Source of the DNA: Diphasiastrum complanatum
Lineage: Eukaryota > Streptophyta > Lycopodiopsida > Lycopodiales > Lycopodiaceae
Length of the DNA stretch: 64,000 nucleotides
Assembly: GCA_029204225.1 (NCBI GenBank)
Contig: CM055104.1
Coordinates: 53,557,165-53,621,164 of the forward strand
Direction: 5' to 3'
Below the pieces are notes generated by a model. That model ran no database searches, had not been told where the DNA came from, and saw only the letters and a list, made by a program, of their open reading frames with translations. Numbering within the stretch: position 1 is the stretch's first letter; the number at the start of each line of letters is the position of its first letter. The translations under genes were made by a program, and so were the position numbers. Of this stretch, positions 7,665 through 64,000 are shown piece by piece.

Positions 7665-10290
7665 GGCCTTTCTCTTTGTCTTACGAAGCTTTTCAATGTT
7701 TTCATGAATCGTTCCAAGAAAAATATCCAGCGACTATGGATAGTGCCCGAATTAAAATAAATAAATCAATGTTAGTGAGAGAACATGAGAATTACCACAA
7801 TAACAATAGTCTAGCATGAACTAAGAATAGGTAATTGACGCAAGTATATGATGTACCTGCGATGCCCTTCTCATCTACCAAATGCACAATGAGATGCATT
7901 TGAATGGTGAGAATGGATGTGGGAAAGTGCTTCTCGATCAAACACGTTGCCTCGATGGAGCTTTGTCTTGCCGCCTCAATAAATGCCAGCGGTATCTCTT
8001 TGGATGAAATGTATCTTCATATGAAAGAGAAACAACAATGACATACATGTTAGTAAGATCATCATCTTGAATCACCCCAAGAAAAAATGATGTGAATCGC
8101 ATGCGCATTCACCGTACCTCACCAAACCACTATTTTTGTAGATTGCACTCCTTAACTCCTCTGTCAAGAACCCTCTCAACACCAAGGGAAGCACAAACAG
8201 CATGCACAAAAATAATTTGGTCATCTAGATACATATATGCGCAATGAGATCATCTTGAAATCACAAGACATGCTATAAAATGTAATCGACAATGTTGAGG
8301 TGGAAGAAATGTCAAAAAACATGCCACGCCAACCTGTAAAAACTTATGCCAGTCATGAGACTTTAGTCCACTTAGCTTGTTGTCTCTCACCCTTTAGGCA
8401 TCGTATGTGTCCTGTTGGAGTTCAAAAAGAGGCTATTGCCCTCTTTACAATCGTCTCTCCTCGAGAAGATCCACGGGGCCTTTGGTAGGACAATCGAAGT
8501 CCCCACCATTTGTGGCCATAAATCAGCCATCATTGCCACTTCTTTTAAATTATCTCGTGCGTCTTTTTTATCTTTCGACCTAGTCAAGTGCTCCCAAATC
8601 ATGCTCCCGACATTCTTGAATCAGATCCAAAAGATGGATTATCAACAATTCCCCCCAATATGGGAGTTCATGACGTATTGATAACCAATTCATGCCAGGA
8701 GGGAGTTGCCCTAGATCTTGATTGGATCTCCAAATCCGAAACCAATCACTTGCCTACAATATTAACAAACAAGCACACACATTTAATGCAGATTATGTAT
8801 CGCTAAAAGAAATATAAAGAGAGTAATTATAAAATAAATAAATGACATGTACCATTAATTAGCCCAAATATGTATCGTAGCTTCATGGAATGAGGGCGTT
8901 GACCAACAAGTCCATCATGCATAGGGTGATCGAGTGGACGGTATCGAGTGTGTGTGGCCCTCATAAACCATCTTTTGCAAATGTTGTGAGTGACGTGCTT
9001 GCAAATACTGGCCACAAATGGGGCACGCATTGTAACTACTAGTTTAGAGCCCTACATTGAGACAAAACAACCTAGTTAATCGTGGGTCAAATGTTTGAAT
9101 TGAGAGTAATTTTGTGGATGCACATAAAATTTAATATAATAGCATAGATCGAACCAATAGCAAGGACATTTCACCTGAATATTCCCCATATTCAAGAAAG
9201 TCGTGCATCGTCCACATCAAGATGCCCTTTACCACAAAATCTCTTTGACAATGTCTTAGTGGTCTTGATATATCGCTCACTTGAACTCCTTGCCATAGAA
9301 TCTTTAGCTCATCTATCAAGGGAGCCATATACACGTCCATATTTTTTACCTTGTATTTTTCCAGGATAAGAAAGGCGAGCATTAGGTGCCCCTTCTTTAT
9401 AATTTGCCAAGATGTTGTAGTTTACAAGGACAACCAACCAAGTGGACCATGATGTGGAGTGCAAACCGAATGGATTCACACCATCCATGGCCAACCCCAA
9501 ATGCAAATGTGAGGCTCATCCCTAAACTCATGCCAGGTAGCATCCACGTGCTTCCCTGTTGGAGAATCGATATGGATTCTCATAGTATCGTCTGATGAAC
9601 GATTGCTCGAATGCCATGTCATTAGTTCCACGATGGAATTACACTTAAACATGTGGCGTATCCTAGGTATGATGGAAAAATGTCATACCACCTTGATGGG
9701 TATGGTCGCTCCTTGTATATCTTGCTTGTAGGGGTGTTCCCCACAACATGGACATGTGCTTGCCTCTGGCAAACTCATCTCGATATAAGATGCAATCATT
9801 AGGACATGCATGAATACTCTTGTAATCCATGCCAACCACGGATAGCATTTTCTTGGCTTCTTGTCGAGACGTCGCCATTGTGTTATTTGGGAGCAACATT
9901 TTCTTGAGCAAACTGTGACAAAACATATGTTTATATAATTAGTGATATATAGTTTGTCACAACGCATGAATTAAAAATAAAATGAGATTAGAGCAATTTG
10001 TCTATAACACACATGAAGCTAGCAAGCTTACTCAAACAACTTCACACTCGCATCTGACCACCCGTGCTTAGTTTGCAAGTTCAAAAGTAACAAACAAACT
10101 CACAACTTTGATATTTGTGCACCCTCGTACAAAGGAGTAGATGCCAAGCCACGCATCATCTCTTCTTCCCTTGTCAATGTGGCCTTGGGTGGATTTTTGA
10201 AGAATGCCTCCTTGTTTGTTGTGAATCCATTGAGGATGCGAAGGGGGGATCCAATAAGCAAGTAGTAGAAAAAAACAAATCAAAGGTGAA
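7665..10290 (-). pseudogene. CACTA (En/Spm) transposase fragment, left copy
   Basis: Minus-strand pieces of the Tnp2-type transposase (Transposase_21 / DUF4218) follow family order. They are LASTPLYEGAQISKL near 10130; KHGWSDASVKLF near 10050; a cysteine segment IHACPNDCILYRDEFA near 9790; DGVNPFG near 9470; YMAPLIDELKILWQG near 9310; ILMWTMHDFLEYGEYSG near 9190; KAPWIFSRRDD near 8470; KSHDWHKFLQ near 8350; CLIEKHFPTSILTIQMHLIV near 7920; and RWIFFLERFMKTLKSF near 7710. Frames change repeatedly and introns cannot be separated from decay. The C-terminus is cut by the gypsy-1 LTR at 7659. The enzyme moved CACTA DNA transposons in the nucleus. No terminal inverted repeats were found. Confidence 0.85.
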
Positions 10291-10299
10291 TTTCTTTTA

Positions 10300-11470
10300 G
10301 TAGAAAAGGCTTGGTCATTTTATAGGTGAATGTTTTAAGAGGAAGATGACTTTAACAAAAGGGCGGTAGCCAAGGTAACTTTACATTTGATAAGGTTGAT
10401 GGGAGTTCCCTTATGATATCTTCAAATATTATGTGTTATCTAATGGATCATGGGATTCAAGGTGGACAGGTAGGTGCTTCTGCTAGTTCTCACATGACTA
10501 GTCACCATTAGGAGAAAAACATAATATTAAGAAACATAGTAGGATTTATAAGCTAGAAGCTTCTATTTATAAGCGTGGAGAAGTTAAGAATGTTATGCAA
10601 ATTGTGTCTTTGATTGAGTTGTGGCACAAGAGATTGGGACATCCAATTTAGATGCATACATTTTTTGGTCAATTATAATCTAACCGGTCTACCTCTTGAT
10701 TTTTTTACAATATACAACACATGTTTACTACAAAACAATATACAACACATTTGATACATTGATTATTTATGACAATAGTAGGCATACCTAGATATACTTA
10801 CTTAAGAGCATGGAACAAGTGAAGGAGACATTCTTTAAGTTTAAATCTATGATGGAGAACCAAATCAACATCAAGATCAAAATATTGAGATTAAGCAATA
10901 TGAGTAGATTCCTAAAGACTCTATCAAAATTTGTGACAACACATGGTATTCAAAGTAAAATTTCTTATCCAAAGACTCCTCAACAAAATGAAATGGACAA
11001 GAGATAAAATAGAAGTTTTCGAGTGTTCTAACGCTCCCACTTTAGGTGGATGAGACAATCAATTACACTTAACTTCATTTCAAATAGGCCACCATTTGCT
11101 CCACTTGATGGTAAGTTATCTTATGCAATTCTTTAAGGTAAACACCTCAAAGTGTTTTCATGCAAAAAGTTTGTTTGCCTTAAAAAAAGAACACTTGTAT
11201 GGGCTCAAGCAAGCCCCAAGATATTTGAATGCTCGATTCGAAATTTCTAGCTTGGGCTTTAGTTCATTGTGAGAGAGCATAATGCATTTTCTTAACATCA
11301 CATTTATGATTGATGAATTTAACATCAAACTTCTATAATATATGTTGATGACACTGTTCAAGAAAGATAGTCATGGAGAAATTGTAAAGATCAAGCTAGC
11401 ACTTAGCCAAGTGTTTAAAATAAAGCTTGGTTTAAGAGATAGTAAGCGAGGTATAAGAGATAGAGAAGCA
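10300..11470 (+). pseudogene. Copia-D pol fragment, left copy
   Basis: A strongly decayed Ty1/copia internal region on the plus strand. In order: a GAG-pre-integrase piece (ELWHKRLGHP-like, near 10620-10650); an integrase core piece (KETFFKFKSMMENQINIKIK, about 10820-10885); an integrase tail HGIQSKISYPKTPQQNEMDKR (10945-11007); and RT pieces including EHLYGLKQAPRYLNARFEI near 11190 and a degraded YVDD region near 11340. Stops and frameshifts are frequent and no LTR was found, so this is an old remnant. It lies between the CACTA fragment and the ARD gene and is transcribed opposite to both. Confidence 0.75.
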
Positions 11471-12870
11471 ACCTCTGAAGAAACTACTCTCTATAAAAGC
11501 TCATGAGCAGGCTCATATAGTTAACAACTAATGGATTCATGAATAATTTCTTAAAATTTACTTTTGGCCTTTAATTTGTTAGACAAAAGTTGAATCAATT
11601 AGTCACATCTATGTTAATTAAAAGAGCATTCCGTAGTGTAGTACACCAAGATTTCTAGTATATGTAGCGATCAATTAGTAATGCAGCTCCTCGTAATATA
11701 GCTAATAATCCTTGCAATGCTCCTTTCGATCCCCAATTATTTGCATCTACACGATTCATAGAAAGATACTAAAATGATCTCAAAAGCTCCAAGAACAAAG
11801 GATTCCAGGCAAGCTATGATCATCATCCAAGTGACTATAGCCATAGTATGCACTTTCACATAAGAATTCAAACCTTCAGCACATAAGAATGTATGGGATC
11901 TAAACCACGAAGAGTTTGAAGGATATGCCAAGCCTCAAATTTTGCTTCAGGGTAGAATAATAGTTCAGGTTGTTTGATATACAATGCCCTCAAAAGTTAT
12001 TATTTCTTGTTGCAGTTATCCAAAGAAGGAATAATAACTTCTGAGATTTCGGCACATAGAAAGACATCTAGATCTGAAGCTAATTTCCGATAGACAAGAA
12101 TATGTATTATGTTGAAGCTCAAGTGAATTAAGATATAATTCTACAAGAGAGAAGAAATTCAGAAAGATATCGTAAAGTATATTTCTGGGAATTTGTCATA
12201 TTAAATATCAAGTAGCTTTATGTGGGCATTGTAGATCAAGTAGCTTCATGTGGGATCATCATGAAAATTTCACCTTCCATGCAGCCCTTAATTCCAAAAA
12301 AAAAAAGAAATTGGGCAGCATGTTAATGCTCAAAAAGGTAATAAAATAGAATGTTATGAGCTCTTCAGAGAGAATCATCATATAGATAAATATATGCCTT
12401 GTACAAGCACAGAACTTATCCAGGTGAATGGAAAGAATCCCGCTCATTTTCTATGATTGTATCAGTTTTGTACTGTACCAATCAATTGTATATCTAACTA
12501 ATATATCCTGCGAATTAGGAGCGTCTTAAAAAACGAGATATGCCGATATAAACTAATCTATAACTGGCTATTTATGTCGTCCGGACACAGCCGCTAGAGA
12601 TATTTTTAGGACAGCTATATAAGAGATCCAACAGCCACCATCTTGGCTGGAAAAAGTCTGATAACAGACTAGACTGGCTGTCACTGAGTGGTAATCCGGT
12701 GTCTATGAACGGCCGCAGGGTTATTCAGCACTTTGTCCACGTATTGTTTCCTGTACCACGATCCAGACAATGAGAGCAACGTAAAAGAGCTTGCTTTTTT
12801 TCGTGGTAGTCGAGAACTTTATGAATGTTTAGATAATTTGCGAATGTTACCCATTCTCAAGCTGGCTTTC
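11471..12870. other. Intergenic stretch downstream of ARD, left copy
   Basis: About 1.4 kb of AT-rich sequence beyond the ARD stop codon. A few minus-strand stretches near 11737-11931 and 12259-12447 are open by chance length only, and no family is recognised. A poly-A run of 11 at 12296-12306 is the same length in the other arm. Confidence 0.5.
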
Positions 12871-14397
12871 TTACCTTGCAGCACTTTCACTCCCCGCTCC
12901 ATGCTGAGTCCTGTATGGAATGTCTGTGTAGAGAAGTGCCTGTACCCAAGTATGCAGGCTTTAGAGTGTAACACTAGCACTGCAATCAACAAGATTCTGA
13001 AATCGTTATGATGGGAAAAAGTTTCATACATGGTTGCATTACCTTGATATAATTGTTCTCATCAATCGTAAACCTGTGAAACATTCCTGGAGGAAGAACA
13101 ATCATATCACCCTTAGTTACGCGGAAACGAATCCATTTACCGTCATAATCTCGAATGTCCCAGTAGCCTGCAAACGCAAGATCAACCCATTACGGCTAAA
13201 TTGTTCTTGCAATCACTGAATTTGACTGAAAACAGAGACAAAACAACATATTCTAATTTTTAAGCTAATATTCGTTAATGGCCTCTTCTGACCGTTGCCA
13301 TCAAGTATCAACCGTATTTCCTCTTGAGAATGCATATGTTCTTGGAAAAATCCTTTCACTTTTTTTTCGAAATCTTCCATCTCTTTGGGGCAAACAGTCA
13401 CGACCTCCTAGTGCCACGCATCATTGAGAATATTAGAATATTGCGATTCCAATAACAAACTCAAGCTGATAGAAACTCCAGAGTCACAAACCAACTGAAT
13501 CAATTTAGGCGAGGACAATACCGAGTATTTGTACCCACGATCCATCTTGATTGTTTCTAGCAAAGTGTTCTTTTCCCATTCGTCTACATCAAGCTTCCAT
13601 GTCAGCACTCCCTGCTCTGACAGTCAAAACTTGCATAGTTAGTAAATTCAGCTTGAATTTGCTCCTTTCATATCCTCTCCAATATCTCCAATAGGTACAA
13701 GCAAAACTAATCTTAGTAGTTGCTTGTTGAGTGTGAATACCGTGGATGTGTTCCTGTGGCACTGGACGATTGGGACTAAACTTGTCCGTAAGCCGGTGAT
13801 CCTCATCGTTTGCATTGTACTCCCAAGCTTCCAACTCTTTCTACATTCAGTGAAAACAATATAAGTAGAACGTCTTAACTAGCAAAAGCTTTTGTAACTG
13901 AAATGTCATAACTGATCAACCATTTAGTATCAGTCCATTTGTAGGTTGCTGTGTCCATGTTAGAAAAATGTTGGCAAGACTATGTGAAGTGATGAAGGAA
14001 AGAAAGCGATGTGTACTGCTTGCATGGGCTTTGGATCAAACCATCTTTCGACTCAAAAACATGTTCTCACCAATTCCGAAAGAAAAACTTCCTCTGACAA
14101 GTTAATATATAGAAATGCAACCGAATGCAAGAGAAATTAATTAGAGTAAGTGACGGATCGTGGAAAAGCAAGCTGAATTAAACTCACACTCTGGCCAGTC
14201 TATGTTCAATCATTATCCGACACTACTAAGCAATGACCTGCCAGGTGCCCGTCCTCACTCCCAAATAGCTACGAAATATACAATTAGTTACAACCAACTA
14301 TCAACACATAGCATTGACGAAAACTCCAGCTGCCAACGAGCATCACAAAAACAAGTTTGTAAACACACACCTGAACGTGAATCTGGGCAATATCCAT
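12871..14397 (-). CDS. ARD: Acireductone dioxygenase, six exons, left copy
   Basis: Mirror copy of the right-arm gene at 58087-59613, with identical exon sequence as far as I compared. Minus-strand coding exons: 14397-14371, 13840-13741, 13616-13522, 13407-13293, 13167-13043 and 12939-12871. Splicing joins them into one 176-codon frame with no stop. The metal ligands of the family (H98, H100, E104, H143) are all present. The enzyme catalyses the dioxygen step of the methionine salvage (Yang) cycle. An upstream in-frame ATG at 14511 could add 38 residues. It is the only host-type gene in the arm, between the copia-D fragment (downstream) and the CCGG minisatellite (upstream). Splice sites were placed by hand. 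Confidence 0.85.
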
Positions 14398-14872
14398 GCT
14401 GAAATTGAATATACTGAGATAAGCCCGACCAAAAAACACTATGCAGCAGAAGCCCAAAATGCTGTTAGAGCTAGTGAGTGCCAATGTAGGCTTTATACAG
14501 GAACAATGCATCAGAATTGGTCCTGGTATCAGTGGTGCAGAGAGCAGCAGTGCAATGGTGGCGTTGGAGACAGGAAACTTCTCCCGATCAGTGGGCGGCG
14601 GAGTAGTTTTTTGAGCAATAGCAGCCGACTAGCTAGCAGTATCTTTAGCTATACAGCATTAGTGTGGTAGTTTCTCCACCGTCAGTGATATGTATGCGCG
14701 CACGAGAGCAAAAGCAACCAAAAGATCGAGAGATCGAGAGAGAGATTTCCCAGATTTCGAAGAAGCGTAAGAGATCGAGAAGGTTAAGGGTGAAGGAGAG
14801 GTGGCGGTGGCACTGCAGCCTAAGTCTTCTCGGAGAGAACCAACACCCAACCTTTGTATATGCATGGCAACC

Positions 14873-14880
14873 TTTATATA
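14873..14880 (-). promoter_or_regulatory. Candidate TATA box of ARD, left copy
   Basis: TATATAAA on the minus strand lies 476 bp upstream of the short-form ATG (14397) and 362 bp upstream of the long-form ATG (14511). A CT-rich leader-like stretch follows. This is plausible by position only. Confidence 0.45.
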
Positions 14881-14929
14881 TGCATGGCAAGACTACTGCA
14901 GGTGGCAACAATGACTATAAAGATTATGA

Positions 14930-15138
14930 AGAGAGATTTTGGGTATTTATTTCTAGTTGGTATTTAAGCCTAAAAGTGTACTCCCTCTTGGGAGTCTATG
15001 TTTTACTTGTGTACTCTATGTAGAAGAACATTCTCCAATGATGGACTTTGTCAAAAATGAATACACATTAGAGGCCTTCTTTTTCATGTACTCTCAATCC
15101 TATTATACATCTAATTTTACTCCAACAAAACCATCACA
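14930..15138 (+). repeat. Possible LTR end upstream of ARD, left copy
   Basis: The plus strand reads ...AACCATCACA followed by TGGTATCCGG. A terminal CA directly before TGGTATC is the usual copia LTR/PBS junction. The left boundary of this presumed LTR is not clear. No gag or pol follows; the tandem repeat starts instead. Confidence 0.4.
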
Positions 15139-15620
15139 TGGTATCCGGTCAAGATTTTAAACAGGTGATCCGGTCGAGATTTAAGATACTGATCCGATCG
15201 AGATTTTGTCTTTTGGATCCGGTCAAGATGTGTTAACTCTGATCCGGTCGAGATTTAGTCTTTGGATTCGGTCGAGATTTTTTCTTTGGATCCAATCGAG
15301 ATGTGATGACTCTACTCTGGTCGAGATCTAAAATAGTTGATACGGTCAAGATTTTTTCTTTGGATCCAGTCGAGATGTGATGACTCTGCTCTGGTCTTTT
15401 AAACAGGTGATCCAGTCGATATGTGATGACTCTGATCCGGTCGAGATTTAAAACAGGTGATTCGGTCGGTATGTGATGACTTTGATCTAGTCAAGATTTT
15501 GTCTTTGTTGGCATCCGGTCGAGATTGCCATTCGGTTGAGATTTGAGTTGTTGGTATCCGGTCAAGATTGCCATCCGGTTGAGATGTGAGTTGTTGGCAT
15601 CTGGTTGCGATTCCATTTGT
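15139..15620. repeat. CCGGTCGAGAT-type tandem repeat, block 1, left copy
   Basis: A variable-length minisatellite built on the core GATCCGGTCGAGATTT with variants (CGGTCAAGAT, CGGTTGAGAT, GATATGTGATGACTCTG spacers). More than a dozen cores occur. The array begins exactly at the PBS-like TGGTATC. Units are not of equal length, so it looks like a higher-order or eroded array. Confidence 0.85.
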
Positions 15621-16114
15621 GGATCACGAGGCAACCCTAACCCTAGTTAATAAGTGAGAGGGATTTGGCACCCTGCGTGTGTAAGTCCAACCCAATGATC
15701 ACATAGTTATTTGATTAATTAGAAAGTCAATAAAAGGACTTTAGGCCTTTTTGCGGGACTTTTATGTCATAAGGCCTAGTTAGTAAATAAAGTTCGGTTT
15801 CCCTCCAATTTTGGATAGTTCTCACTCTTTTTTAAATTTGAATAATTAGGGAGGTAGAAATGGACCAATAGGATTATGAGGCCAGGGTTCTCCTCTCTAT
15901 TATAAAAAGGGAACGACTCGAGTTATCTTTATTGTGGATCTTAGTGCTAATGCTTAGGGTTAATGGATGTTAGAGCTAGATGTGGATCTTCCATTCATGC
16001 TGAAATCTAAAATATGCTATCTCTCTCATGGGAATGAACCTACGCGTGACAACTAACTTCATCACCTTGATGCTAGATTGATTAGATCTTGGGTTGAGGA
16101 TAGGCAAGGAAAAA
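15621..16114. other. Non-coding interval between repeat blocks, left copy
   Basis: No gene seen. It contains AACCCTAACCCTAG near 15630-15650, two units resembling the plant telomere motif but far too short to be a telomere array, and AT-rich sequence. Confidence 0.5.
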
Positions 16115-16345
16115 AACCCAGTACAGATTGCCATCCGGTTGAGATTTGAGTTGTTGGTATCCAGTTGAGATTGCCATCCGGTTGAGATGTGATCTATTGG
16201 CATTTGGTCGAGTTTGTCATCCGGTTGAGATGTAATCTGTTTATATTCGGTCAAGATTGCCATCTCGTTGAGATGTGAGCTGTTGGCATCCGGTTGAGAT
16301 TTGAACTGTTGGCATCTGGTCGAGATTGCCATCCGCTTGAGAAAT
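16115..16345. repeat. CCGGTCGAGAT-type tandem repeat, block 2, left copy
   Basis: A second block of the same minisatellite with the form GCCATCCGGTTGAGAT(T/G)TGA...GTTGGCATCCGG. It is separated from block 1 by about 500 bp of unrelated sequence. Confidence 0.85.
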
Positions 16346-16647
16346 AAGGTACCGAAGTGGAAATGGCAAGTGTATCAATATGAGGAAGTTCTTAGAGGTT
16401 TTGTAGGTCTTAATTATCAGATTTGTCTGTGCATGTACAAAAATGACGGCTCTGAACTGTAGACAGAATATGGACACTAAAAGTGAGAAAACCTAACTTG
16501 TGAAGCTTGACCAGAGGATGTTGACCTTGAACATAAAAAGTAAATAAAAAATAACAAATAACAAGAAGGTAGGCATCCAAAGGGACCATGAACAAGAATG
16601 GAAACAGTGTGGAAGCAATAAAAGAGTAAAGACGAAAGGGATGAGTA

Positions 16648-16671
16648 TATATAGATATATATATATATATA
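16648..16671. repeat. (TA)n microsatellite, left copy
   Basis: An alternating TA run broken by one G lies just beyond the gypsy-2 integrase C-terminus. It has the same structure in the right arm. Confidence 0.9.
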
Positions 16672-16698
16672 ATTTCTTGAGAGATTAAATGGAGTCAA

Positions 16699-18901
16699 CA
16701 AAAAATAACTCTTCATAGTATCGTCGTAAATGACAATCATTGACGACAGTCTCTAGGAGTACGTCGTCAAGTGTTTCTAATGAGACTGCTCCATTTGAAA
16801 AGATTTTATTAATTATATGGTCCTTCACTTCGGAATTTGAGTTTCCCTAGGTGCTTCTTAGATGTGTAGAAAAGCATCTGATCACCTAAGTATAAGTCTT
16901 CATTGCACAGGTGACGATCATGCCAGGCTTTTTGGCGACGTTTGTTGACTAACTGTGCATGATATGAGATGAGTCGAGTCTCGCACAATTGGGCTAACGT
17001 AAATAGCCTAGTTTGGACTTCTTGTTTGATTGCAACTTTCTCACATAGATCAGTAGAGAAAGCTTGCATGACTCGCAAGGAAGGAACTAAAAATTCAACA
17101 GGCATTACTGTCTCTTGACCGTAGACGAGATGGAAGAGAGTAACCCATCCAATGACCTTCTTGGGAGTGGTTCGGTACGCCCAAATAGTTGAGAATAGCT
17201 TGGTTTTCCAATCTGATTGACTTGTTTTAACTATCTTCGCTAGGATCTTACAGATTGTCTTGTTGGTAAATTCCGCCTGGCCATTACATCAGGGATGATA
17301 TGGAGTACTTTTGCGGTGGACAACAAGGTAATGGCATAAGAGATTGTCAACCACTTCATTTAAGAAGTGTGAACCTCTATCACTAACAAGCTCGATTAGA
17401 CAGCCAAAGCGTGTAATGATGTTTTCATAAAGAAAACGCGCGATGGTCTTCGCATTGGCATCTTTGTTGTGCGCGCCTCAACCCATTTTGTGGCATAATC
17501 AGTTGAAATCAGGATATAATGGGCTTGAGTATTTTTTGCTGCTGGGATAATGGGCCCAACAAAGTCTATACCCCACTTATGGAAAGCTATGGAAGCTTTG
17601 CCTTCTATAATGGAGTTAAGCGGTGTGAAGTCTGCTTTTGCAGTCTTTTTGGGTCGTTGGCAAACATCACATGATTTGATGATAGCAAATGTATTCTTAA
17701 ACAATGATGGCTACCATAAGCCTGCACGGAGGATTATCTTTGCAGTCGCTTTCACGGAGAAGTGACCACCACCAATGCCTTCATGTGCATGAGATATGAT
17801 AGGTCGTATTTCAGATTCATATGCACATCGGCATATAATACCATCAGCAACCCTGTTATATAATGGTCTGGCGATAAGTTGAAAGGGTGTGATTTTATTA
17901 AAAAATTTCTTCTGGCCACTTGGTTTAGCCCTTTTTTTAGTCGGCCAGTTGTAAGGAACTGAGTGATTTCCTCAACCCATGGTGGAGTGGCATCAATCTG
18001 AAAAAAGCATGCATCAGGTAGATCATTGTTGACTAGTGCATCAGCTTTTTCAGCATTGGCAAGTCTAGAAAGGTGGTCGGCCATGAAGTGTTGTGTGCCT
18101 TTCCTGATGACTGCGCCGAATGTGAATTCCTCAAGTATTAACAGCCACCTAGTTATGCGTCCGGTTTTACAGGATTTATTTACAATATTTAACAAGGCTT
18201 GATTGTCTATATAGAAAGCAAAGGTTTACCCTAGCAAATAATGTCGCAATTGTTGAATGACGTAGACCATGGCCAGTGCTTCACGCTTTGTTGTGGTATA
18301 GTTTACTTTAGCAGACACCAGTTGTCTGCTCAAGAAATGTATTGGAAAATCTTTTCCATACTCACCCGGTTGTACTAGGATACCTCCAATGGCATACTTA
18401 CTTGCGTCAGTATGCACATGGAATTCCTTCGTGTAATCTGGGGAACGAAGTATGGGTGCAGTGGTAAGTGTTGTTTCTAATTCCTCAAAAGCTTTTATGC
18501 GCTCTTCGGTCCATCTAGGGTCGACCACAACTAAATAGGTGAGTCGTGCCTTACTGGCGTAGTCGACTATGAAGATGCGGTAGTAGTTATTATGGCCTAA
18601 AAAGATGTATACTTCTTTCAATGTGGTGAGTAAGGGCATCTCAACTATAACCTTGATCTTTGAAGGATCGGTAGAAATACCATCCTTGGATATAATATGT
18701 CTGAGCACAACCCCATGGGTGACCTAGATTTGACATTTTTTGGGGTTTAGTGATATTCCAAACCTTCGACAACAAATGAAAATCTTTTCAGGTGTTTCGA
18801 GGTGTTTGTCTGTAAAAGAATGTACACCAAGATCATCAAGATAGATCTCAACAATCTGGTGTAGCAAGTCTTGGAATGACATTTGCATGAGACGTTGAAA
18901 T
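16699..18901 (-). pseudogene. pol: Gypsy-2 RT C-terminus, RNase H, integrase, left copy
   Basis: Minus-strand Ty3/gypsy pol. It resumes at FQRLMQMSFQDLLHQ right next to the copia-B LTR end at 18902. Next come the catalytic YLDDLGVHSFTDKHLE, GISLNPKKC, RNase H (YTKEFHVHTDASKYAIGG, then ILVQPGEYGKDFPIHFLSRQ), the connection with MADHLSRL, the integrase zinc finger end SCDVCQRPKKT, the core start HKWGIDFVGPI with STDYATKWVEA, a degraded middle, and the C-terminal domain ending GPYN...FSNGAVSLETLD...LRRYYE near 16720. Stops (for example at 18225) and frameshifts inactivate it. This arm has GKASIAFHKW where the other has GKAFHKW, a 9-bp difference. The N-terminal RT lies beyond the nested copia at 24165-24620. 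Confidence 0.9.
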
Positions 18902-27868: not shown

Positions 27869-27874
27869 GTCTTC

Positions 27875-40370: not shown

Positions 40371-40389
40371 ATATATTAAGTCATTGTTT

Positions 40390-48597: not shown

Positions 48598-48600
48598 TAG

Positions 48601-50911: not shown

Positions 50912-52855
50912 CTATCAGTCGTTGACATTCGACAAAACAATTAGTCTTGACGCTGATGAGAGACTGATGAGAGAGGAAGAAGAAGGAAGCAATGATCAAG
51001 AGAAAGCCCTCTTCACAAAAGGGAAGAAGAAGAAGAAGAACAAACCCAGATTTGACAAGACAAAGTCCTCTATTCAACAATCTTCTTCCTGTGATCACTA
51101 TCACAAACTAGGCCATATACCCAACAAATTCTGGTTCAATCTAGCAATACCTTGCATGCATTACAAGAAGAAGGGGCACTTTGCATACGATTGCAGATTC
51201 AACCCAAAAAGAAAGAACAAGACTGAGAAAACAAATGTTGCAGAGTCATCCAAAGATGTAGATAGAGGTGATGAAGCCTTCACAATACTTGATGAAGCTT
51301 CAACGAGCTACAATGAACAAGACTAGGATGTAGTCATTGATTCAGGGGCAACATCACACATCACTTGCAACAAGAAAATCTTGATCGACTTCAGAGAACT
51401 ATAAATTAATAGAGCAGTGATTCTAGATGATGGGAGCAGACACGATGTCAAAGGCATCAGGACTCTACAGCTGCAAACATTGTCAGGTCAAGCAGAGCTG
51501 CCAAGGGCACTCTACATGTCTTCACTGAGAAAAGAATTGCTATCAGTCTCCAAGATGGCAGATCTTGGAATTCAAGTTTTGTTCAATGGCAATACATGCC
51601 GCATGATCGAGAAAACTACAAACAAATTGCTGACAGTTGGATGCAGAGAAGAAAACCTCTACCAAGCTAAGATAATCAGCAATTTTGATAGCATATTAAA
51701 TGCATCAGAAAATGAAGATTAGCTCTGTCACAGAAGAATATATCATCTAAACATGAGGAGCCTATATGACATGTGTAAGAAAGACATAGTCATAGGTCTA
51801 AAGATATCAAAATCCGATACTGAGTTTTGCGAAGCTTGTTAGAAAGACAAACAACATCGGAATCCATTCACACATGAGGGAAGAAGAGCCAAAGAAGTTC
51901 TTGAGCTCGTCCACTCAGATGTTTGTGAACTGATGAAAATGGATTCGCTCTCAGGATTGAGGTATTTCTTGACATTCATAGATGATTACAGCCGGATGAC
52001 TACGATCTACTACCTAAAGAAAAAATCTGATATGTTTGACTCTTTCAAGAAGTTAGTGGCATTTGTAGAGCGACACACGTCAAAGAAGATTTAGATCATC
52101 AGATCTGACAATGGAGGTGAGTACAAGAGCAAAGAATTTTCAAAATTCTACCAAGAACAGGGGATAGAGCATCAATTCACTCCTACATACACACGAGAAG
52201 TATTGTAGCTTCACTGAAGAGCCAGCAACATATCAAGAAGCTATCTAGAGTCTAGAGGGAGAATTCTGGAAGCAGACAATGTCAGAAGAGATCGAGTTGA
52301 TGAGGCAAAACGAGGCATGGACACTAGACCACTGCCTACATAACAGAAAATGAAAGAAAAGGATTCGAACTGGACCACTATAGTAATGCAAGCTGGGCGA
52401 GCTACAAAGATGACAGGAATTCCGTAACTGGAGGATGTTCAATAGCGTGTGGAGCAGCAATCAGTTAAATATACAAAAAACAAACCTTGGTAGCTCAATC
52501 TTCTTGCAAAGCTGAATACGTCGCAACTTTAAAGGTGGTGAACGAGGTAGTTTGATTGCAGATGATGTTGGAGGCAATTGGAATATCACAAGGAAGACCA
52601 TGCATGACGATGATGGATTCTCAGATTGCCGTTTATTTGTCCCAAGATACTGTCTTTCATTCAAAGACAAAACACATACCTCTAAAGTACCATCACATTC
52701 GAGATTTGATCTTGAAGGAGAGCTCCAGAACTAGTACATAAAGTCTGAAGACATGATTGCTTATCTGCTCACGAAGCCGCTCGACAAGCCACTATTTGCA
52801 AAGCAAAGAAAGACAATTGGATTAAATGTGCAAAGCTGCAAGGTTCTAGAGGAAG
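50912..52855 (+). pseudogene. Copia-B internal region with deletions, right copy
   Basis: Mirror of 19638-21582 with the same internal deletions (integrase tail and most of RT missing). The gag end is at 50922-51326, protease DSGATSHITC near 51335-51370, integrase near 51830-52180 and RNase H at 52360-52740. The polypurine tract before the LTR reads TCTAGAGGAAG, one G shorter than in the left arm. Confidence 0.85.
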
Positions 52856-53591
52856 TGTTAGAAATGGTGAACTCCTGCAACTTTGTCGCGACGCGAAGCT
52901 AAGCAACATGAAGTGAAGGTCAAATGGCGAACAATTCGCGAAAGTCAACGTACCTCAAAAACCCTAAGACACGAAGCGAAGCGAAACTCGAAGGGCGAAT
53001 GATTCGCGAAAGTCAAACATGCCTCCAGGACCAAAAGACACGTCATGACACAAAATGAAAAGAAAATGAAAGAAAATCTTTCATGTTGCCAGCTGGCAGC
53101 TCAATGGGCGTGGAATCTTAAACTTCACGGTCAGCTGAAACAGTTAGCAATAACGGAGAGTAACTAATTAGTTGATTACTGTTAACTACTCTTGTAATTC
53201 TTTGTTTAGCTTTCGTGTAAACTCCACAAGTGGAGATAGAAAATTTTTTTAGGATCAAAAGAATACACTGAGAGTGTGCATGAGTAGAGTAGAAAAGAAA
53301 AAGAATAGAAATGAAATAGTTGTGCATGAAAGTCTACCAACTAGAAGAACACATCGAAAGAGTAGAGTGTCAGGCCGCCCACGAACGAGACACTGATCAT
53401 CTGGCTCTAAAAATCAAACTGATAATACAGTTGCTCTATCTTGTGCATCTCCTTGTCTTCCATTTTCTTGATTGCTAGAATGATATCTATTCTATGATCT
53501 ATAGTTGCATGTCTAGGATCCTGCAAGCTTCCGCCTAAGAAAATTCAAAAGAAACAAATCCGTTCACGATACACTAAACCCGTTCGTGACA
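52856..53591 (+). repeat. Copia-B 3' LTR, right copy
   Basis: Mirror of 18902-19637, TGTTAGAAATGG to TTCGTGACA, abutting gypsy-2 RT at 53592. Confidence 0.75.
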
Positions 53592-55785
53592 ATTTCAACG
53601 TCTCATGCAAATGTCATTCCAAGACTTGCTACACCAGATTGTTGAGATCTATCTTGATGATCTTGGTGTACATTCTTTTACAGACAAACACCTCGAAACA
53701 CCTGAAAAGATTTTCATTTGTTGTCGAAGGTTTGGAATATCACTAAACCCCAAAAAATGTCAAATCTAGGTCACCCATGGGGTTGTGCTCAGACATATTA
53801 TATCCAAGGATGGTATTTCTACCGATCCTTCAAAGATCAAGGTTATAGTTGAGATGCCCTTACTCACCACATTGAAAGAAGTATACATCTTTTTAGGCCA
53901 TAATAACTACTACCGCATCTTCATAGTCGACTACGCCAGTAAGGCACGACTCACCTATTTAGTTGTGGTCGACCCTAGATGGACCGAAGAGCGCATAAAA
54001 GCTTTTGAGGAATTAGAAACAACACTTACCACTGCACCCATACTTCGTTCCCCAGATTACACGAAGGAATTCCATGTGCATACTGACGCAAGTAAGTATG
54101 CCATTGGAGGTATCCTAGTACAACCGGGTGAGTATGGAAAAGATTTTCCAATACATTTCTTGAGCAGACAACTGGTGTCTGCTAAAGTAAACTATACCAC
54201 AACAAAGCGTGAAGCACTGGCCATGGTCTACGTCATTCAACAATTGCGACATTATTTGCTAGGGTAAACCTTTGCTTTCTATATAGACAATCAAGCCTTG
54301 TTAAATATTGTAAATAAATCCTGTAAAACCGGACGCATAACTAGGTGGCTGTTAATACTTGAGGAATTCACATTCGGCGCAGTCATCAGGAAAGGCACAC
54401 AACACTTCATGGCCGACCACCTTTCTAGACTTGCCAATGCTGAAAAAGCTGATGCACTAGTCAACAATGATCTACCTGATGCATGCTTTTTTCAGATTGA
54501 TGCCACTCCACCATGGGTTGAGGAAATCACTCAGTTCCTTACAACTGGCCGACTAAAAAAAGGGCTAAACCAAGTGGCCAGAAGAAATTTTTTAATAAAA
54601 TCACACCCTTTCAACTTATCGCCAGACCATTATATAACAGGGTTGCTGATGGTATTATATGCCGATGTGCATATGAATCTGAAATACGACCTATCATATC
54701 TCATGCACATGAAGGCATTGGTGGTGGTCACTTCTCCGTGAAAGCGACTGCAAAGATAATCCTCCGTGCAGGCTTATGGTAGCCATCATTGTTTAAGAAT
54801 ACATTTGCTATCATCAAATCATGTGATGTTTGCCAACGACCCAAAAAGACTGCAAAAGCAGACTTCACACCGCTTAACTCCATTATAGAAGGCAAAGCTT
54901 TCCATAAGTGGGGTATAGACTTTGTTGGGCCCATTATCCCAGCAGCAAAAAATACTCAAGCCCATTATATCCTGATTTCAACTGATTATGCCACAAAATG
55001 GGTTGAGGCGCGCACAACAAAGATGCCAATGCGAAGACCATCGCGCGTTTTCTTTATGAAAACATCATTACACGCTTTGGCTGTCTAATCGAGCTTGTTA
55101 GTGATAGAGGTTCACACTTCTTAAATGAAGTGGTTGACAATCTCTTATGCCATTACCTTGTTGTCCACCGCAAAAGTACTCCATATCATCCCTGATGTAA
55201 TGGCCAGGCGGAATTTACCAACAAGACAATCTGTAAGATCCTAGCGAAGATAGTTAAAACAAGTCAATCAGATTGGAAAACCAAGCTATTCTCAACTATT
55301 TGGGCGTACCGAACCACTCCCAAGAAGGTCATTGGATGGGTTACTCTCTTCCATCTCGTCTACGGTCAAGAGACAGTAATGCCTGTTGAATTTTTAGTTC
55401 CTTCCTTGCGAGTCATGCAAGCTTTCTCTACTGATCTATGTGAGAAAGTTGCAATCAAACAAGAAGTCCAAACTAGGCTATTTACGTTAGCCCAATTGTG
55501 CGAGACTCGACTCATCTCATATCATGCACAGTTAGTCAACAAACGTCGCCAAAAAGCCTGGCATGATCGTCACCTGTGCAATGAAGACTTATACTTAGGT
55601 GATCAGATGCTTTTCTACACATCTAAGAAGCACCTAGGGAAACTCAAATTCCGAAGTGAAGGACCATATAATTAATAAAATCTTTTCAAATGGAGCAGTC
55701 TCATTAGAAACACTTGACGACGTACTCCTAGAGACTGTCGTCAATGATTGTCATTTACGACGATACTATGAAGAGTTATTTTTTG
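53592..55785 (+). pseudogene. pol: Gypsy-2 RT C-terminus, RNase H, integrase, right copy
   Basis: Mirror of 16699-18901 with the same stops. It differs by a 9-bp in-frame loss near 54898, giving IIEGKAFHKWGIDFVGP without the SIA residues. Comparable gypsy integrases usually have only a short link here, so the shorter form may be nearer the ancestral one, but this is inference. The RT N-terminal half present in the spacer at 24165-24620 has no counterpart near this copy. Confidence 0.9.
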
Positions 55786-55812
55786 TTGACTCCATTTAAT
55801 CTCTCAAGAAAT

Positions 55813-55836
55813 TATATATATATATATATCTATATA
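55813..55836. repeat. (TA)n microsatellite, right copy
   Basis: Same length and same interrupting base as in the left arm. Fast-mutating repeats being equal argues that the arms are very young or one is an artefact. Confidence 0.9.
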
Positions 55837-56138
55837 TACTCATCCCTTTCGTCTTTACTCTTTTATTGCTTCCACACTGTTTCCATTCTTGTTCATGGTC
55901 CCTTTGGATGCCTACCTTCTTGTTATTTGTTATTTTTTATTTACTTTTTATGTTCAAGGTCAACATCCTCTGGTCAAGCTTCACAAGTTAGGTTTTCTCA
56001 CTTTTAGTGTCCATATTCTGTCTACAGTTCAGAGCCGTCATTTTTGTACATGCACAGACAAATCTGATAATTAAGACCTACAAAACCTCTAAGAACTTCC
56101 TCATATTGATACACTTGCCATTTCCACTTCGGTACCTT

Positions 56139-56369
56139 ATTTCTCAAGCGGATGGCAATCTCGACCAGATGCCAACAGTTCAAATCTCAACCGGATGCCA
56201 ACAGCTCACATCTCAACGAGATGGCAATCTTGACCGAATATAAACAGATTACATCTCAACCGGATGACAAACTCGACCAAATGCCAATAGATCACATCTC
56301 AACCGGATGGCAATCTCAACTGGATACCAACAACTCAAATCTCAACCGGATGGCAATCTGTACTGGGTT
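56139..56369. repeat. CCGGTCGAGAT-type tandem repeat, block 2, right copy
   Basis: Mirror of 16115-16345; cores read ATCTCAACCGGATGGCAATC on the plus strand. Confidence 0.85.
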
Positions 56370-56863
56370 TTTTTCCTTGCCTATCCTCAACCCAAGATCT
56401 AATCAATCTAGCATCAAGGTGATGAAGTTAGTTGTCACGCGTAGGTTCATTCCCATGAGAGAGATAGCATATTTTAGATTTCAGCATGAATGGAAGATCC
56501 ACATCTAGCTCTAACATCCATTAACCCTAAGCATTAGCACTAAGATCCACAATAAAGATAACTCGAGTCGTTCCCTTTTTATAATAGAGAGGAGAACCCT
56601 GGCCTCATAATCCTATTGGTCCATTTCTACCTCCCTAATTATTCAAATTTAAAAAAGAGTGAGAACTATCCAAAATTGGAGGGAAACCGAACTTTATTTA
56701 CTAACTAGGCCTTATGACATAAAAGTCCCGCAAAAAGGCCTAAAGTCCTTTTATTGACTTTCTAATTAATCAAATAACTATGTGATCATTGGGTTGGACT
56801 TACACACGCAGGGTGCCAAATCCCTCTCACTTATTAACTAGGGTTAGGGTTGCCTCGTGATCC
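56370..56863. other. Non-coding interval between repeat blocks, right copy
   Basis: Mirror of 15621-16114. No gene seen. Confidence 0.5.
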
Positions 56864-57345
56864 ACAAATGGAATCGCAACCAGATGCCAACAACTCACAT
56901 CTCAACCGGATGGCAATCTTGACCGGATACCAACAACTCAAATCTCAACCGAATGGCAATCTCGACCGGATGCCAACAAAGACAAAATCTTGACTAGATC
57001 AAAGTCATCACATACCGACCGAATCACCTGTTTTAAATCTCGACCGGATCAGAGTCATCACATATCGACTGGATCACCTGTTTAAAAGACCAGAGCAGAG
57101 TCATCACATCTCGACTGGATCCAAAGAAAAAATCTTGACCGTATCAACTATTTTAGATCTCGACCAGAGTAGAGTCATCACATCTCGATTGGATCCAAAG
57201 AAAAAATCTCGACCGAATCCAAAGACTAAATCTCGACCGGATCAGAGTTAACACATCTTGACCGGATCCAAAAGACAAAATCTCGATCGGATCAGTATCT
57301 TAAATCTCGACCGGATCACCTGTTTAAAATCTTGACCGGATACCA
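56864..57345. repeat. CCGGTCGAGAT-type tandem repeat, block 1, right copy
   Basis: Mirror of 15139-15620, with cores AATCTCGACCGGATC. No unit gain or loss relative to the left arm, since the coordinate sum stays 72484 across it. Confidence 0.85.
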
Positions 57346-57554
57346 TGTGATGGTTTTGTTGGAGTAAAATTAGATGTATAATAGGATTGAGAGTACATGA
57401 AAAAGAAGGCCTCTAATGTGTATTCATTTTTGACAAAGTCCATCATTGGAGAATGTTCTTCTACATAGAGTACACAAGTAAAACATAGACTCCCAAGAGG
57501 GAGTACACTTTTAGGCTTAAATACCAACTAGAAATAAATACCCAAAATCTCTCT
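57346..57554 (-). repeat. Possible LTR end upstream of ARD, right copy
   Basis: Mirror of 14930-15138. The terminal CA is followed on the minus strand by TGGTATCC. Confidence 0.4.
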
Positions 57555-57603
57555 TCATAATCTTTATAGTCATTGTTGCCACCTGCAGTAGTCTTGCCAT
57601 GCA

Positions 57604-57611
57604 TATATAAA
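57604..57611 (+). promoter_or_regulatory. Candidate TATA box of ARD, right copy
   Basis: TATATAAA is followed within 40-180 bp by a CT-rich leader (CTCTCTCTCGATCTCTCGAT). A short upstream ORF (ATGCTGTATAGCTAA, near 57824) lies in the presumed leader. Confidence 0.45.
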
Positions 57612-58086
57612 GGTTGCCATGCATATACAAAGGTTGGGTGTTGGTTCTCTCCGAGAAGACTTAGGCTGCAGTGCCACCGCCACCTCTCCTTCACCCTTAA
57701 CCTTCTCGATCTCTTACGCTTCTTCGAAATCTGGGAAATCTCTCTCTCGATCTCTCGATCTTTTGGTTGCTTTTGCTCTCGTGCGCGCATACATATCACT
57801 GACGGTGGAGAAACTACCACACTAATGCTGTATAGCTAAAGATACTGCTAGCTAGTCGGCTGCTATTGCTCAAAAAACTACTCCGCCGCCCACTGATCGG
57901 GAGAAGTTTCCTGTCTCCAACGCCACCATTGCACTGCTGCTCTCTGCACCACTGATACCAGGACCAATTCTGATGCATTGTTCCTGTATAAAGCCTACAT
58001 TGGCACTCACTAGCTCTAACAGCATTTTGGGCTTCTGCTGCATAGTGTTTTTTGGTCGGGCTTATCTCAGTATATTCAATTTCAGC

Positions 58087-59613
58087 ATGGATATTGCCCA
58101 GATTCACGTTCAGGTGTGTGTTTACAAACTTGTTTTTGTGATGCTCGTTGGCAGCTGGAGTTTTCGTCAATGCTATGTGTTGATAGTTGGTTGTAACTAA
58201 TTGTATATTTCGTAGCTATTTGGGAGTGAGGACGGGCACCTGGCAGGTCATTGCTTAGTAGTGTCGGATAATGATTGAACATAGACTGGCCAGAGTGTGA
58301 GTTTAATTCAGCTTGCTTTTCCACGATCCGTCACTTACTCTAATTAATTTCTCTTGCATTCGGTTGCATTTCTATATATTAACTTGTCAGAGGAAGTTTT
58401 TCTTTCGGAATTGGTGAGAACATGTTTTTGAGTCGAAAGATGGTTTGATCCAAAGCCCATGCAAGCAGTACACATCGCTTTCTTTCCTTCATCACTTCAC
58501 ATAGTCTTGCCAACATTTTTCTAACATGGACACAGCAACCTACAAATGGACTGATACTAAATGGTTGATCAGTTATGACATTTCAGTTACAAAAGCTTTT
58601 GCTAGTTAAGACGTTCTACTTATATTGTTTTCACTGAATGTAGAAAGAGTTGGAAGCTTGGGAGTACAATGCAAACGATGAGGATCACCGGCTTACGGAC
58701 AAGTTTAGTCCCAATCGTCCAGTGCCACAGGAACACATCCACGGTATTCACACTCAACAAGCAACTACTAAGATTAGTTTTGCTTGTACCTATTGGAGAT
58801 ATTGGAGAGGATATGAAAGGAGCAAATTCAAGCTGAATTTACTAACTATGCAAGTTTTGACTGTCAGAGCAGGGAGTGCTGACATGGAAGCTTGATGTAG
58901 ACGAATGGGAAAAGAACACTTTGCTAGAAACAATCAAGATGGATCGTGGGTACAAATACTCGGTATTGTCCTCGCCTAAATTGATTCAGTTGGTTTGTGA
59001 CTCTGGAGTTTCTATCAGCTTGAGTTTGTTATTGGAATCGCAATATTCTAATATTCTCAATGATGCGTGGCACTAGGAGGTCGTGACTGTTTGCCCCAAA
59101 GAGATGGAAGATTTCGAAAAAAAAGTGAAAGGATTTTTCCAAGAACATATGCATTCTCAAGAGGAAATACGGTTGATACTTGATGGCAACGGTCAGAAGA
59201 GGCCATTAACGAATATTAGCTTAAAAATTAGAATATGTTGTTTTGTCTCTGTTTTCAGTCAAATTCAGTGATTGCAAGAACAATTTAGCCGTAATGGGTT
59301 GATCTTGCGTTTGCAGGCTACTGGGACATTCGAGATTATGACGGTAAATGGATTCGTTTCCGCGTAACTAAGGGTGATATGATTGTTCTTCCTCCAGGAA
59401 TGTTTCACAGGTTTACGATTGATGAGAACAATTATATCAAGGTAATGCAACCATGTATGAAACTTTTTCCCATCATAACGATTTCAGAATCTTGTTGATT
59501 GCAGTGCTAGTGTTACACTCTAAAGCCTGCATACTTGGGTACAGGCACTTCTCTACACAGACATTCCATACAGGACTCAGCATGGAGCGGGGAGTGAAAG
59601 TGCTGCAAGGTAA
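58087..59613 (+). CDS. ARD: Acireductone dioxygenase, six exons, right copy
   Basis: Coding exons 58087-58113, 58644-58743, 58868-58962, 59077-59191, 59317-59441 and 59545-59613 total 528 coding bases plus TAA, or 176 codons, all with GT-AG introns of 103-530 bp and no stop. This is the usual ARD length. The protein reads EAWEYNANDEDHRL, GVLTWKLDVDEWEKN, VTVCPKEMEDFEKKV, then the cupin motif EHMHSQEEIR and GDMIVLPPGMFHRFTID. H98, H100, E104 and H143 match the Fe/Ni ligands known in bacterial ARD (H96, H98, E102, H140). The product oxidises the acireductone intermediate of methionine salvage in the cytosol or nucleus. The C-terminus (TDIPYRTQHGAGSESAAR) differs from the common WTPYNRP ending. 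An in-frame ATG at 57973 would add 38 residues with a hydrophobic stretch (SILGFCCIVFFGRAYL). Exon limits were read by eye. Confidence 0.9.
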
Positions 59614-61013
59614 GAAAGCCAGCTTGAGAATGGGTAACATTCGCAAATTATCTAAACATTCATAAAGTTCTCGACTACCACGAAAAAAAGCAAGCTCTTT
59701 TACGTTGCTCTCATTGTCTGGATCGTGGTACAGGAAACAATACGTGGACAAAGTGCTGAATAACCCTGCGGCCGTTCATAGACACCGGATTACCACTCAG
59801 TGACAGCCAGTCTAGTCTGTTATCAGACTTTTTCCAGCCAAGATGGTGGCTGTTGGATCTCTTATATAGCTGTCCTAAAAATATCTCTAGCGGCTGTGTC
59901 CGGACGACATAAATAGCCAGTTATAGATTAGTTTATATCGGCATATCTCGTTTTTTAAGACGCTCCTAATTCGCAGGATATATTAGTTAGATATACAATT
60001 GATTGGTACAGTACAAAACTGATACAATCATAGAAAATGAGCGGGATTCTTTCCATTCACCTGGATAAGTTCTGTGCTTGTACAAGGCATATATTTATCT
60101 ATATGATGATTCTCTCTGAAGAGCTCATAACATTCTATTTTATTACCTTTTTGAGCATTAACATGCTGCCCAATTTCTTTTTTTTTTTGGAATTAAGGGC
60201 TGCATGGAAGGTGAAATTTTCATGATGATCCCACATGAAGCTACTTGATCTACAATGCCCACATAAAGCTACTTGATATTTAATATGACAAATTCCCAGA
60301 AATATACTTTACGATATCTTTCTGAATTTCTTCTCTCTTGTAGAATTATATCTTAATTCACTTGAGCTTCAACATAATACATATTCTTGTCTATCGGAAA
60401 TTAGCTTCAGATCTAGATGTCTTTCTATGTGCCGAAATCTCAGAAGTTATTATTCCTTCTTTGGATAACTGCAACAAGAAATAATAACTTTTGAGGGCAT
60501 TGTAGATCAAACAACCTGAACTATTATTCTACCCTGAAGCAAAATTTGAGGCTTGGCATATCCTTCAAACTCTTCGTGGTTTAGATCCCATACATTCTTA
60601 TGTGCTGAAGGTTTGAATTCTTATGTGAAAGTGCATACTATGGCTATAGTCACTTGGATGATGATCATAGCTTGCCTGGAATCCTTTGTTCTTGGAGCTT
60701 TTGAGATCATTTTAGTATCTTTCTATGAATCGTGTAGATGCAAATAATTGGGGATCGAAAGGAGCATTGCAAGGATTATTAGCTATATTACGAGGAGCTG
60801 CATTACTAATTGATCGCTACATATACTAGAAATCTTGGTGTACTACACTACGGAATGCTCTTTTAATTAACATAGATGTGACTAATTGATTCAACTTTTG
60901 TCTAACAAATTAAAGGCCAAAAGTAAATTTTAAGAAATTATTCATGAATCCATTAGTTGTTAACTATATGAGCCTGCTCATGAGCTTTTATAGAGAGTAG
61001 TTTCTTCAGAGGT
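59614..61013. other. Intergenic stretch downstream of ARD, right copy
   Basis: Mirror of 11471-12870. No gene recognised. It holds the ARD 3' UTR and AT-rich DNA. Confidence 0.5.
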
Positions 61014-62184
61014 TGCTTCTCTATCTCTTATACCTCGCTTACTATCTCTTAAACCAAGCTTTATTTTAAACACTTGGCTAAGTGCTAGCTTGATCTTTAC
61101 AATTTCTCCATGACTATCTTTCTTGAACAGTGTCATCAACATATATTATAGAAGTTTGATGTTAAATTCATCAATCATAAATGTGATGTTAAGAAAATGC
61201 ATTATGCTCTCTCACAATGAACTAAAGCCCAAGCTAGAAATTTCGAATCGAGCATTCAAATATCTTGGGGCTTGCTTGAGCCCATACAAGTGTTCTTTTT
61301 TTAAGGCAAACAAACTTTTTGCATGAAAACACTTTGAGGTGTTTACCTTAAAGAATTGCATAAGATAACTTACCATCAAGTGGAGCAAATGGTGGCCTAT
61401 TTGAAATGAAGTTAAGTGTAATTGATTGTCTCATCCACCTAAAGTGGGAGCGTTAGAACACTCGAAAACTTCTATTTTATCTCTTGTCCATTTCATTTTG
61501 TTGAGGAGTCTTTGGATAAGAAATTTTACTTTGAATACCATGTGTTGTCACAAATTTTGATAGAGTCTTTAGGAATCTACTCATATTGCTTAATCTCAAT
61601 ATTTTGATCTTGATGTTGATTTGGTTCTCCATCATAGATTTAAACTTAAAGAATGTCTCCTTCACTTGTTCCATGCTCTTAAGTAAGTATATCTAGGTAT
61701 GCCTACTATTGTCATAAATAATCAATGTATCAAATGTGTTGTATATTGTTTTGTAGTAAACATGTGTTGTATATTGTAAAAAAATCAAGAGGTAGACCGG
61801 TTAGATTATAATTGACCAAAAAATGTATGCATCTAAATTGGATGTCCCAATCTCTTGTGCCACAACTCAATCAAAGACACAATTTGCATAACATTCTTAA
61901 CTTCTCCACGCTTATAAATAGAAGCTTCTAGCTTATAAATCCTACTATGTTTCTTAATATTATGTTTTTCTCCTAATGGTGACTAGTCATGTGAGAACTA
62001 GCAGAAGCACCTACCTGTCCACCTTGAATCCCATGATCCATTAGATAACACATAATATTTGAAGATATCATAAGGGAACTCCCATCAACCTTATCAAATG
62101 TAAAGTTACCTTGGCTACCGCCCTTTTGTTAAAGTCATCTTCCTCTTAAAACATTCACCTATAAAATGACCAAGCCTTTTCTAC
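61014..62184 (-). pseudogene. Copia-D pol fragment, right copy
   Basis: Mirror of 10300-11470, with the same broken integrase and RT pieces (KETFFKFKSMMENQINIKIK at about 61600-61660). Confidence 0.75.
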
Positions 62185-62193
62185 TAAAAGAAA

Positions 62194-64000
62194 TTCACCT
62201 TTGATTTGTTTTTTTCTACTACTTGCTTATTGGATCCCCCCTTCGCATCCTCAATGGATTCACAACAAACAAGGAGGCATTCTTCAAAAATCCACCCAAG
62301 GCCACATTGACAAGGGAAGAAGAGATGATGCGTGGCTTGGCATCTACTCCTTTGTACGAGGGTGCACAAATATCAAAGTTGTGAGTTTGTTTGTTACTTT
62401 TGAACTTGCAAACTAAGCACGGGTGGTCAGATGCGAGTGTGAAGTTGTTTGAGTAAGCTTGCTAGCTTCATGTGTGTTATAGACAAATTGCTCTAATCTC
62501 ATTTTATTTTTAATTCATGCGTTGTGACAAACTATATATCACTAATTATATAAACATATGTTTTGTCACAGTTTGCTCAAGAAAATGTTGCTCCCAAATA
62601 ACACAATGGCGACGTCTCGACAAGAAGCCAAGAAAATGCTATCCGTGGTTGGCATGGATTACAAGAGTATTCATGCATGTCCTAATGATTGCATCTTATA
62701 TCGAGATGAGTTTGCCAGAGGCAAGCACATGTCCATGTTGTGGGGAACACCCCTACAAGCAAGATATACAAGGAGCGACCATACCCATCAAGGTGGTATG
62801 ACATTTTTCCATCATACCTAGGATACGCCACATGTTTAAGTGTAATTCCATCGTGGAACTAATGACATGGCATTCGAGCAATCGTTCATCAGACGATACT
62901 ATGAGAATCCATATCGATTCTCCAACAGGGAAGCACGTGGATGCTACCTGGCATGAGTTTAGGGATGAGCCTCACATTTGCATTTGGGGTTGGCCATGGA
63001 TGGTGTGAATCCATTCGGTTTGCACTCCACATCATGGTCCACTTGGTTGGTTGTCCTTGTAAACTACAACATCTTGGCAAATTATAAAGAAGGGGCACCT
63101 AATGCTCGCCTTTCTTATCCTGGAAAAATACAAGGTAAAAAATATGGACGTGTATATGGCTCCCTTGATAGATGAGCTAAAGATTCTATGGCAAGGAGTT
63201 CAAGTGAGCGATATATCAAGACCACTAAGACATTGTCAAAGAGATTTTGTGGTAAAGGGCATCTTGATGTGGACGATGCACGACTTTCTTGAATATGGGG
63301 AATATTCAGGTGAAATGTCCTTGCTATTGGTTCGATCTATGCTATTATATTAAATTTTATGTGCATCCACAAAATTACTCTCAATTCAAACATTTGACCC
63401 ACGATTAACTAGGTTGTTTTGTCTCAATGTAGGGCTCTAAACTAGTAGTTACAATGCGTGCCCCATTTGTGGCCAGTATTTGCAAGCACGTCACTCACAA
63501 CATTTGCGAAAGATGGTTTATGAGGGCCACACACACTCGATACCGTCCACTCGATCACCCTATGCATGATGGACTTGTTGGTCAACGCCCTCATTCCATG
63601 AAGCTACGATACATATTTGGGCTAATTAATGGTACATGTCATTTATTTATTTTATAATTACTCTCTTTATATTTCTTTTAGCGATACATAATCTGCATTA
63701 AATGTGTGTGCTTGTTTGTTAATATTGTAGGCAAGTGATTGGTTTCGGATTTGGAGATCCAATCAAGATCTAGGGCAACTCCCTCCTGGCATGAATTGGT
63801 TATCAATACGTCATGAACTCCCATATTGGGGGGAATTGTTGATAATCCATCTTTTGGATCTGATTCAAGAATGTCGGGAGCATGATTTGGGAGCACTTGA
63901 CTAGGTCGAAAGATAAAAAAGACGCACGAGATAATTTAAAAGAAGTGGCAATGATGGCTGATTTATGGCCACAAATGGTGGGGACTTCGATTGTCCTACC
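62194..64000 (+). pseudogene. CACTA transposase fragment, right copy
   Basis: Mirror of 8484-10290; it runs off the window. The order of motifs is the same. One residue differs between arms: HNICERWFMRATH here versus HNICKRWFMRATH on the left (position 63508 versus 8976). Whether the gypsy-1 LTR truncation is also mirrored cannot be seen. Confidence 0.85.

Follow-up and report, generated by a model that had tools for sequence, protein, structure and literature searches.

A 64,000-nucleotide stretch of DNA from the clubmoss Diphasiastrum complanatum (hereafter, the window) raises the question of whether two near-identical sequences, facing each other in inverted orientation across a long spacer, were duplicated in the plant or were brought together when the contig was assembled. 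The answer depends on the differences between the two copies, and on the structure of the two joints at which they meet the spacer.

Extent and Identity of the Inverted Repeat

Self-BLAST of the window yielded one long inverted match, 8484-23896 versus 64000-48598, comprising 15,413 columns with 4 mismatches and 10 gap positions (99.909% identity). This bears out the initial annotation, which had claimed a giant near-identical inverted repeat with arms of at least 15.4 kb around a spacer of ~24.7 kb; the arms are two long reverse-complementary sequences with an identity above 99%. A match of this length and identity would lie far beyond chance expectation, and a chance match is ruled out. The repeat is composed of the following parts:

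8484..23896, plus strand: arm A; its low end is fixed by the window end, and no boundary is seen there
48598..64000, minus strand: arm B; continues up to the window end
23897..48597, no strand: spacer of 24,701 bp with retrotransposon pieces, including a copia-type open reading frame (ORF) at 38528-39226

The sums of paired positions that had been reported for the arms, stepping from 72494 on the inner side to 72493 and then to 72484 on the outer side, agree with the alignment. The start of the repeat that had been placed at 8484 does not hold: arm B reaches the window end and 8484 is the mirror position of that end, so that no boundary is seen there, and both arms may extend further on their outer sides.

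The arms differ by six events, namely four substitutions, one 9-bp indel and one 1-bp indel, which are distributed along the length of the arm (positions are those of arm A):

8976: T/C
11979: A/C
17584-17592: 9 bp extra in A
19641: 1 bp extra in A
22479: G/A
23603: T/C

The G+C content amounts to 38.9% for each arm, compared with 38.8% for the spacer and 36.9% for the left flank. The window is made up of the letters A, C, G and T only, with no N; therefore, the spacer contains no gap marked as such.

The Gene Carried by the Arms

Each arm contains a gene for acireductone dioxygenase (ARD), an enzyme of the methionine salvage pathway:

12681..14397, minus strand: intact ARD gene of arm A; 7 exons, six GT-AG introns, 198 amino acids
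58087..59803, plus strand: identical ARD gene of arm B; reproduces 12684-14397 of the opposite strand without a change

The two copies are identical because no arm difference falls between 11979 and 17584, and 12684-14397 recurs unchanged in arm B. The initial annotation was right both in identifying this gene and in placing the whole of it within the arms, since the model has all seven exons and no internal stop. A partial, 167-residue ARD model matched PF03079 with 145.9 bits versus a cut-off of 27, which places the protein in the ARD/ARD' family; nine distinct sequences of solved structures also match the partial protein, the best being acireductone dioxygenases. The metal-binding pattern known for ARD appears intact in the translation.

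The closest match is the D. complanatum protein O6H91_01G173900, with 95% protein identity over the full length, nine mismatches and one gap position. The nine mismatches suggest that the gene in the window is either a further paralogue or comes from another species. In a search with the partial model, from which the first and last exons were missing, D. complanatum proteins made up 9 of the 21 rows and came from eight named loci; the remaining organism-named rows belonged to Selaginella, the fern Adiantum and the moss Ceratodon. With these eight loci, ARD forms a multigene family in the species.

An Insertion Private to Arm A

Of the six arm differences, one could be polarized:

17584..17592, minus strand: 9-bp in-frame insertion private to arm A, within the retrotransposon integrase fragment 17399-17710

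Pfam gives no match for the fragment itself, but integrase domains are present in the majority of the 11 homologues found for it. Since the 9 bp are missing from arm B, and from all six homologues that were aligned (of the 11 found), they arose in arm A after the copies separated. An insertion private to one arm means that the arms represent two distinct DNA copies, and double placement of the same reads by the assembler is thus made unlikely. It should be noted that the insertion counts against this simplest artefact only; an assembler that joined two alleles or dispersed paralogues could leave such a difference as well.

Structure of the Inner Joints

The two inner joints had been treated alike in the initial annotation; they prove to be different, an ORF running uninterrupted over joint 1 (23896/23897), and a copia element being broken at joint 2 (48597/48598):

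23835..24146, minus strand: copia-type ORF spanning joint 1; 104 amino acids, uninterrupted, ending at the start of reverse transcriptase (RT)
48248..48659, plus strand: joint 2 region; copia gag-pre-integrase and integrase start, with the arm's RT start coming next in another frame

The ORF at joint 1 has no Pfam match of its own, and leads into the RVT_2 reverse transcriptase at 23093-23713 (PF07727). Three other copia stretches of the window align with this ORF over the joint and show no break at that point: 38086-37862 (E 1e-12), 45881-45642 (a weak match, E 4e-4) and, from residue 58 of the ORF onward, 20278-20144 with its mirror at 52216-52350 (also weak, E 0.001). The gaps in the alignments over joint 1 lie upstream of the joint, as does a stop in the two weaker matches. 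Near 24146, ~250 bp from joint 1 on the spacer side, the copia-type ORF abuts another RT-like stretch, which we called gypsy by eye (24313-24588 has no Pfam match); as two retrotransposon-like stretches meet there, the site had already undergone an earlier rearrangement.

At joint 2, both partner sequences end. The ORF 48248-48601 comprises the gag-pre-integrase region and the integrase start (PF13976), and the RT start of the arm follows directly in a different frame. The integrase core appears to be missing, since the homologous stretch in the copia copy 38528-39226 continues into that core. Because the ORF is unbroken over joint 1, whereas the element is broken at joint 2, we infer that joint 1 is probably the original arrangement and joint 2 probably the new junction. 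The copia pieces on either side of joint 2 stand in domain order and share their orientation, as would also be expected if a single element had undergone an internal deletion.

Origin of the Inverted Repeat

With confidence somewhat better than even, we favor the view that the clubmoss nuclear genome recently underwent a segmental duplication in inverted, spaced form, or a small inversion that duplicated the region around its breakpoint. At least 15.4 kb of sequence, comprising the intact ARD gene and the remains of old retrotransposons, would have been copied in reverse ~25 kb away. Either of these two routes would leave one original and one new inner joint, which agrees with what is seen. 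Joint 2 would have been formed by end joining or a replication template switch, given that the joined pieces are non-equivalent positions of copia sequence, which also argues against simple homologous recombination between copia copies at this joint. The outer end of arm B lies beyond the window, and the second new junction would be outside the sequence seen.

Either the arms arose recently, or arm-to-arm gene conversion keeps them alike. If substitutions accumulate at between 7e-9 and 1e-9 per site and year, an assumption based on general values that are not specific to this plant, the 4 that separate the arms over 15.4 kb would represent about 19,000 to 130,000 years; gene conversion would reset the divergence clock and void this estimate, and the same number of substitutions is also compatible with two alleles.

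The strongest competitor, to which we assign an appreciable minority of our belief, is an assembly error in which the contig unites, in the spacer or at joint 2, alleles or dispersed paralogues that are separate in the plant, so that the inverted arrangement would be absent there. The very low divergence of the arms is consistent with such a misjoin, as are the many retrotransposon pieces in the spacer and the position of joint 2 inside copia sequence, of which there are several copies in the window alone. However, the insertion private to arm A marks two distinct sequences, although two alleles are compatible with it, and the window contains no N. Furthermore, a misjoin driven by repeats would be expected to yield a collinear element, which is not what joint 2 shows, since the positions joined there are non-equivalent. 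The available part of PMC10419180 gives no account of how the assembly was made.

Less likely is a gene-bearing palindrome whose arms are held near-identical by gene conversion, doubling a working ARD gene. Such a palindrome would have no tie to a sex chromosome in a homosporous clubmoss, clubmosses of this family being homosporous, and what is seen of the arms may belong to something much larger. Still more doubtful is an old palindrome kept identical by gene conversion, in which a longer repeat with a complete copia element later lost different parts: the 5' part of the element in arm A, with a fusion near 24146, and the integrase part in arm B, at joint 2. The domain order and common orientation of the copia pieces around joint 2 agree with this history, and so does the chimeric boundary that arm A has of its own near 24146, formed with an RT-like stretch named by eye and without a Pfam match. 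Conversely, two deletions would be needed at the same place in arms that are otherwise six events apart over 15.4 kb. Mirror symmetry is also lacking at the ends of the spacer: over 3 kb on each side, only two matching words, of 12 and 13 bp, were found.

A breakage-fusion or fold-back palindrome fits poorly with a spacer of 24.7 kb and no mirror axis in the compared 3-kb ends. The initial annotation had listed sex chromosomes, amplified loci, breakage-fusion events and assembly artefacts as possible origins; of these, breakage-fusion fits poorly for want of mirror symmetry in these spacer ends. Among artefacts, double placement of reads is unlikely given the private insertion, whereas a misjoin keeps the standing given above. 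A plastid quadripartite inverted repeat, suggested by the roughly equal size of lycophyte plastid repeats, has a negligible probability and is refuted by content: no tRNA genes were found in the search and no Rfam family, rRNA included, reached the gathering score, whereas the sequence holds retrotransposon pieces and an intron-bearing ARD gene. With an organelle excluded by content and an ARD gene closest to that of D. complanatum, the window is taken to be nuclear clubmoss DNA, its content pointing to D. complanatum or a near relative.

If the spaced inverted duplication is real, a complete gene has recently been duplicated in inverted form in a lycophyte, a group with few genomes, and the direction of the event can be read from a rearrangement joint inside retrotransposon sequence. 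If it is not, the locus serves as a caution for contigs in which near-identical copies have been joined.

Comparison with Known Systems

Whichever reading holds, the kind of structure is already known. In the staggered-break model, the breakpoints of an inversion gain inverted duplications, and inverted copies of the breakpoint region come to flank the inverted segment; the clubmoss arms would correspond to such copies if the spacer is inverted relative to the ancestor. Palindromes of the Salix purpurea W chromosome have gene-bearing arms of ~20 kb with a mean identity >99% and LTR retrotransposons inside (PMC7023750). They resemble the clubmoss repeat in being gene-bearing inverted arms of similar size and identity, in a plant, with retrotransposons inside; unlike it, they comprise four arms, with a spacer that is short (~3 kb) or unidentified, compared to 24.7 kb here (PMC7023750). 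The willow palindromes are sex-linked, which the clubmoss repeat may or may not be. Human copy number variants include inverted duplications beside copy-neutral segments, having a junction with little or no homology (PMC10766186). The likeness lies in the inverted duplicate across an intervening stretch and in one junction with little or no homology; in contrast to the clubmoss repeat, the human cases are disease alleles of known copy number and outer junction (PMC10766186). Our literature search found no paper joining D. complanatum with a palindrome, and no Diphasiastrum paper reported such a structure in its title or the beginning of its abstract.

Other Repeats and Open Frames in the Window

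In the assignment of retrotransposon pieces, gypsy and copia labels follow Pfam where there was a match, and known motifs for the other pieces; pieces without a Pfam match were called retrotransposon-like by eye or by their neighbors. No Pfam match was obtained for the retrotransposon-like pieces 16812-17288, 17399-17710, 21171-21584, 22725-23204, 23835-24146, 24313-24588, 32479-33441, 34163-34669, 34676-35197 and 35294-36403. The last of these is a 370-codon open frame on the minus strand, flanked by the open frames 34163-34669 and 34676-35197; among 2240 candidates, no homologue of the 370-amino-acid product was found at E 0.001 or better.

Within the spacer, there is an inverted match of 29560-29912 with 39982-40332, and one weak match links the spacer to an arm (169 columns, 68%). 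At 31706-31841, two tandem units of ~70 bp are also self-complementary, the stretch having an 89% inverted match with itself. These matches, together with some shorter ones inside the spacer, are located away from both joints and are not counted as part of the structure.

Outside the repeat, a direct repeat of ~235 bp (252-485 and 7427-7659, 91% identical) flanks retrotransposon-like open frames, named by eye; its two copies are possibly the terminal repeats of one element. Inside the repeat, both arms carry minisatellite arrays built of 17-74 bp units around the motif ATCCGGTCGAGAT; they occupy 15139-15617 and 16118-16342 in arm A, and their mirror in arm B lies at 56142-57345.
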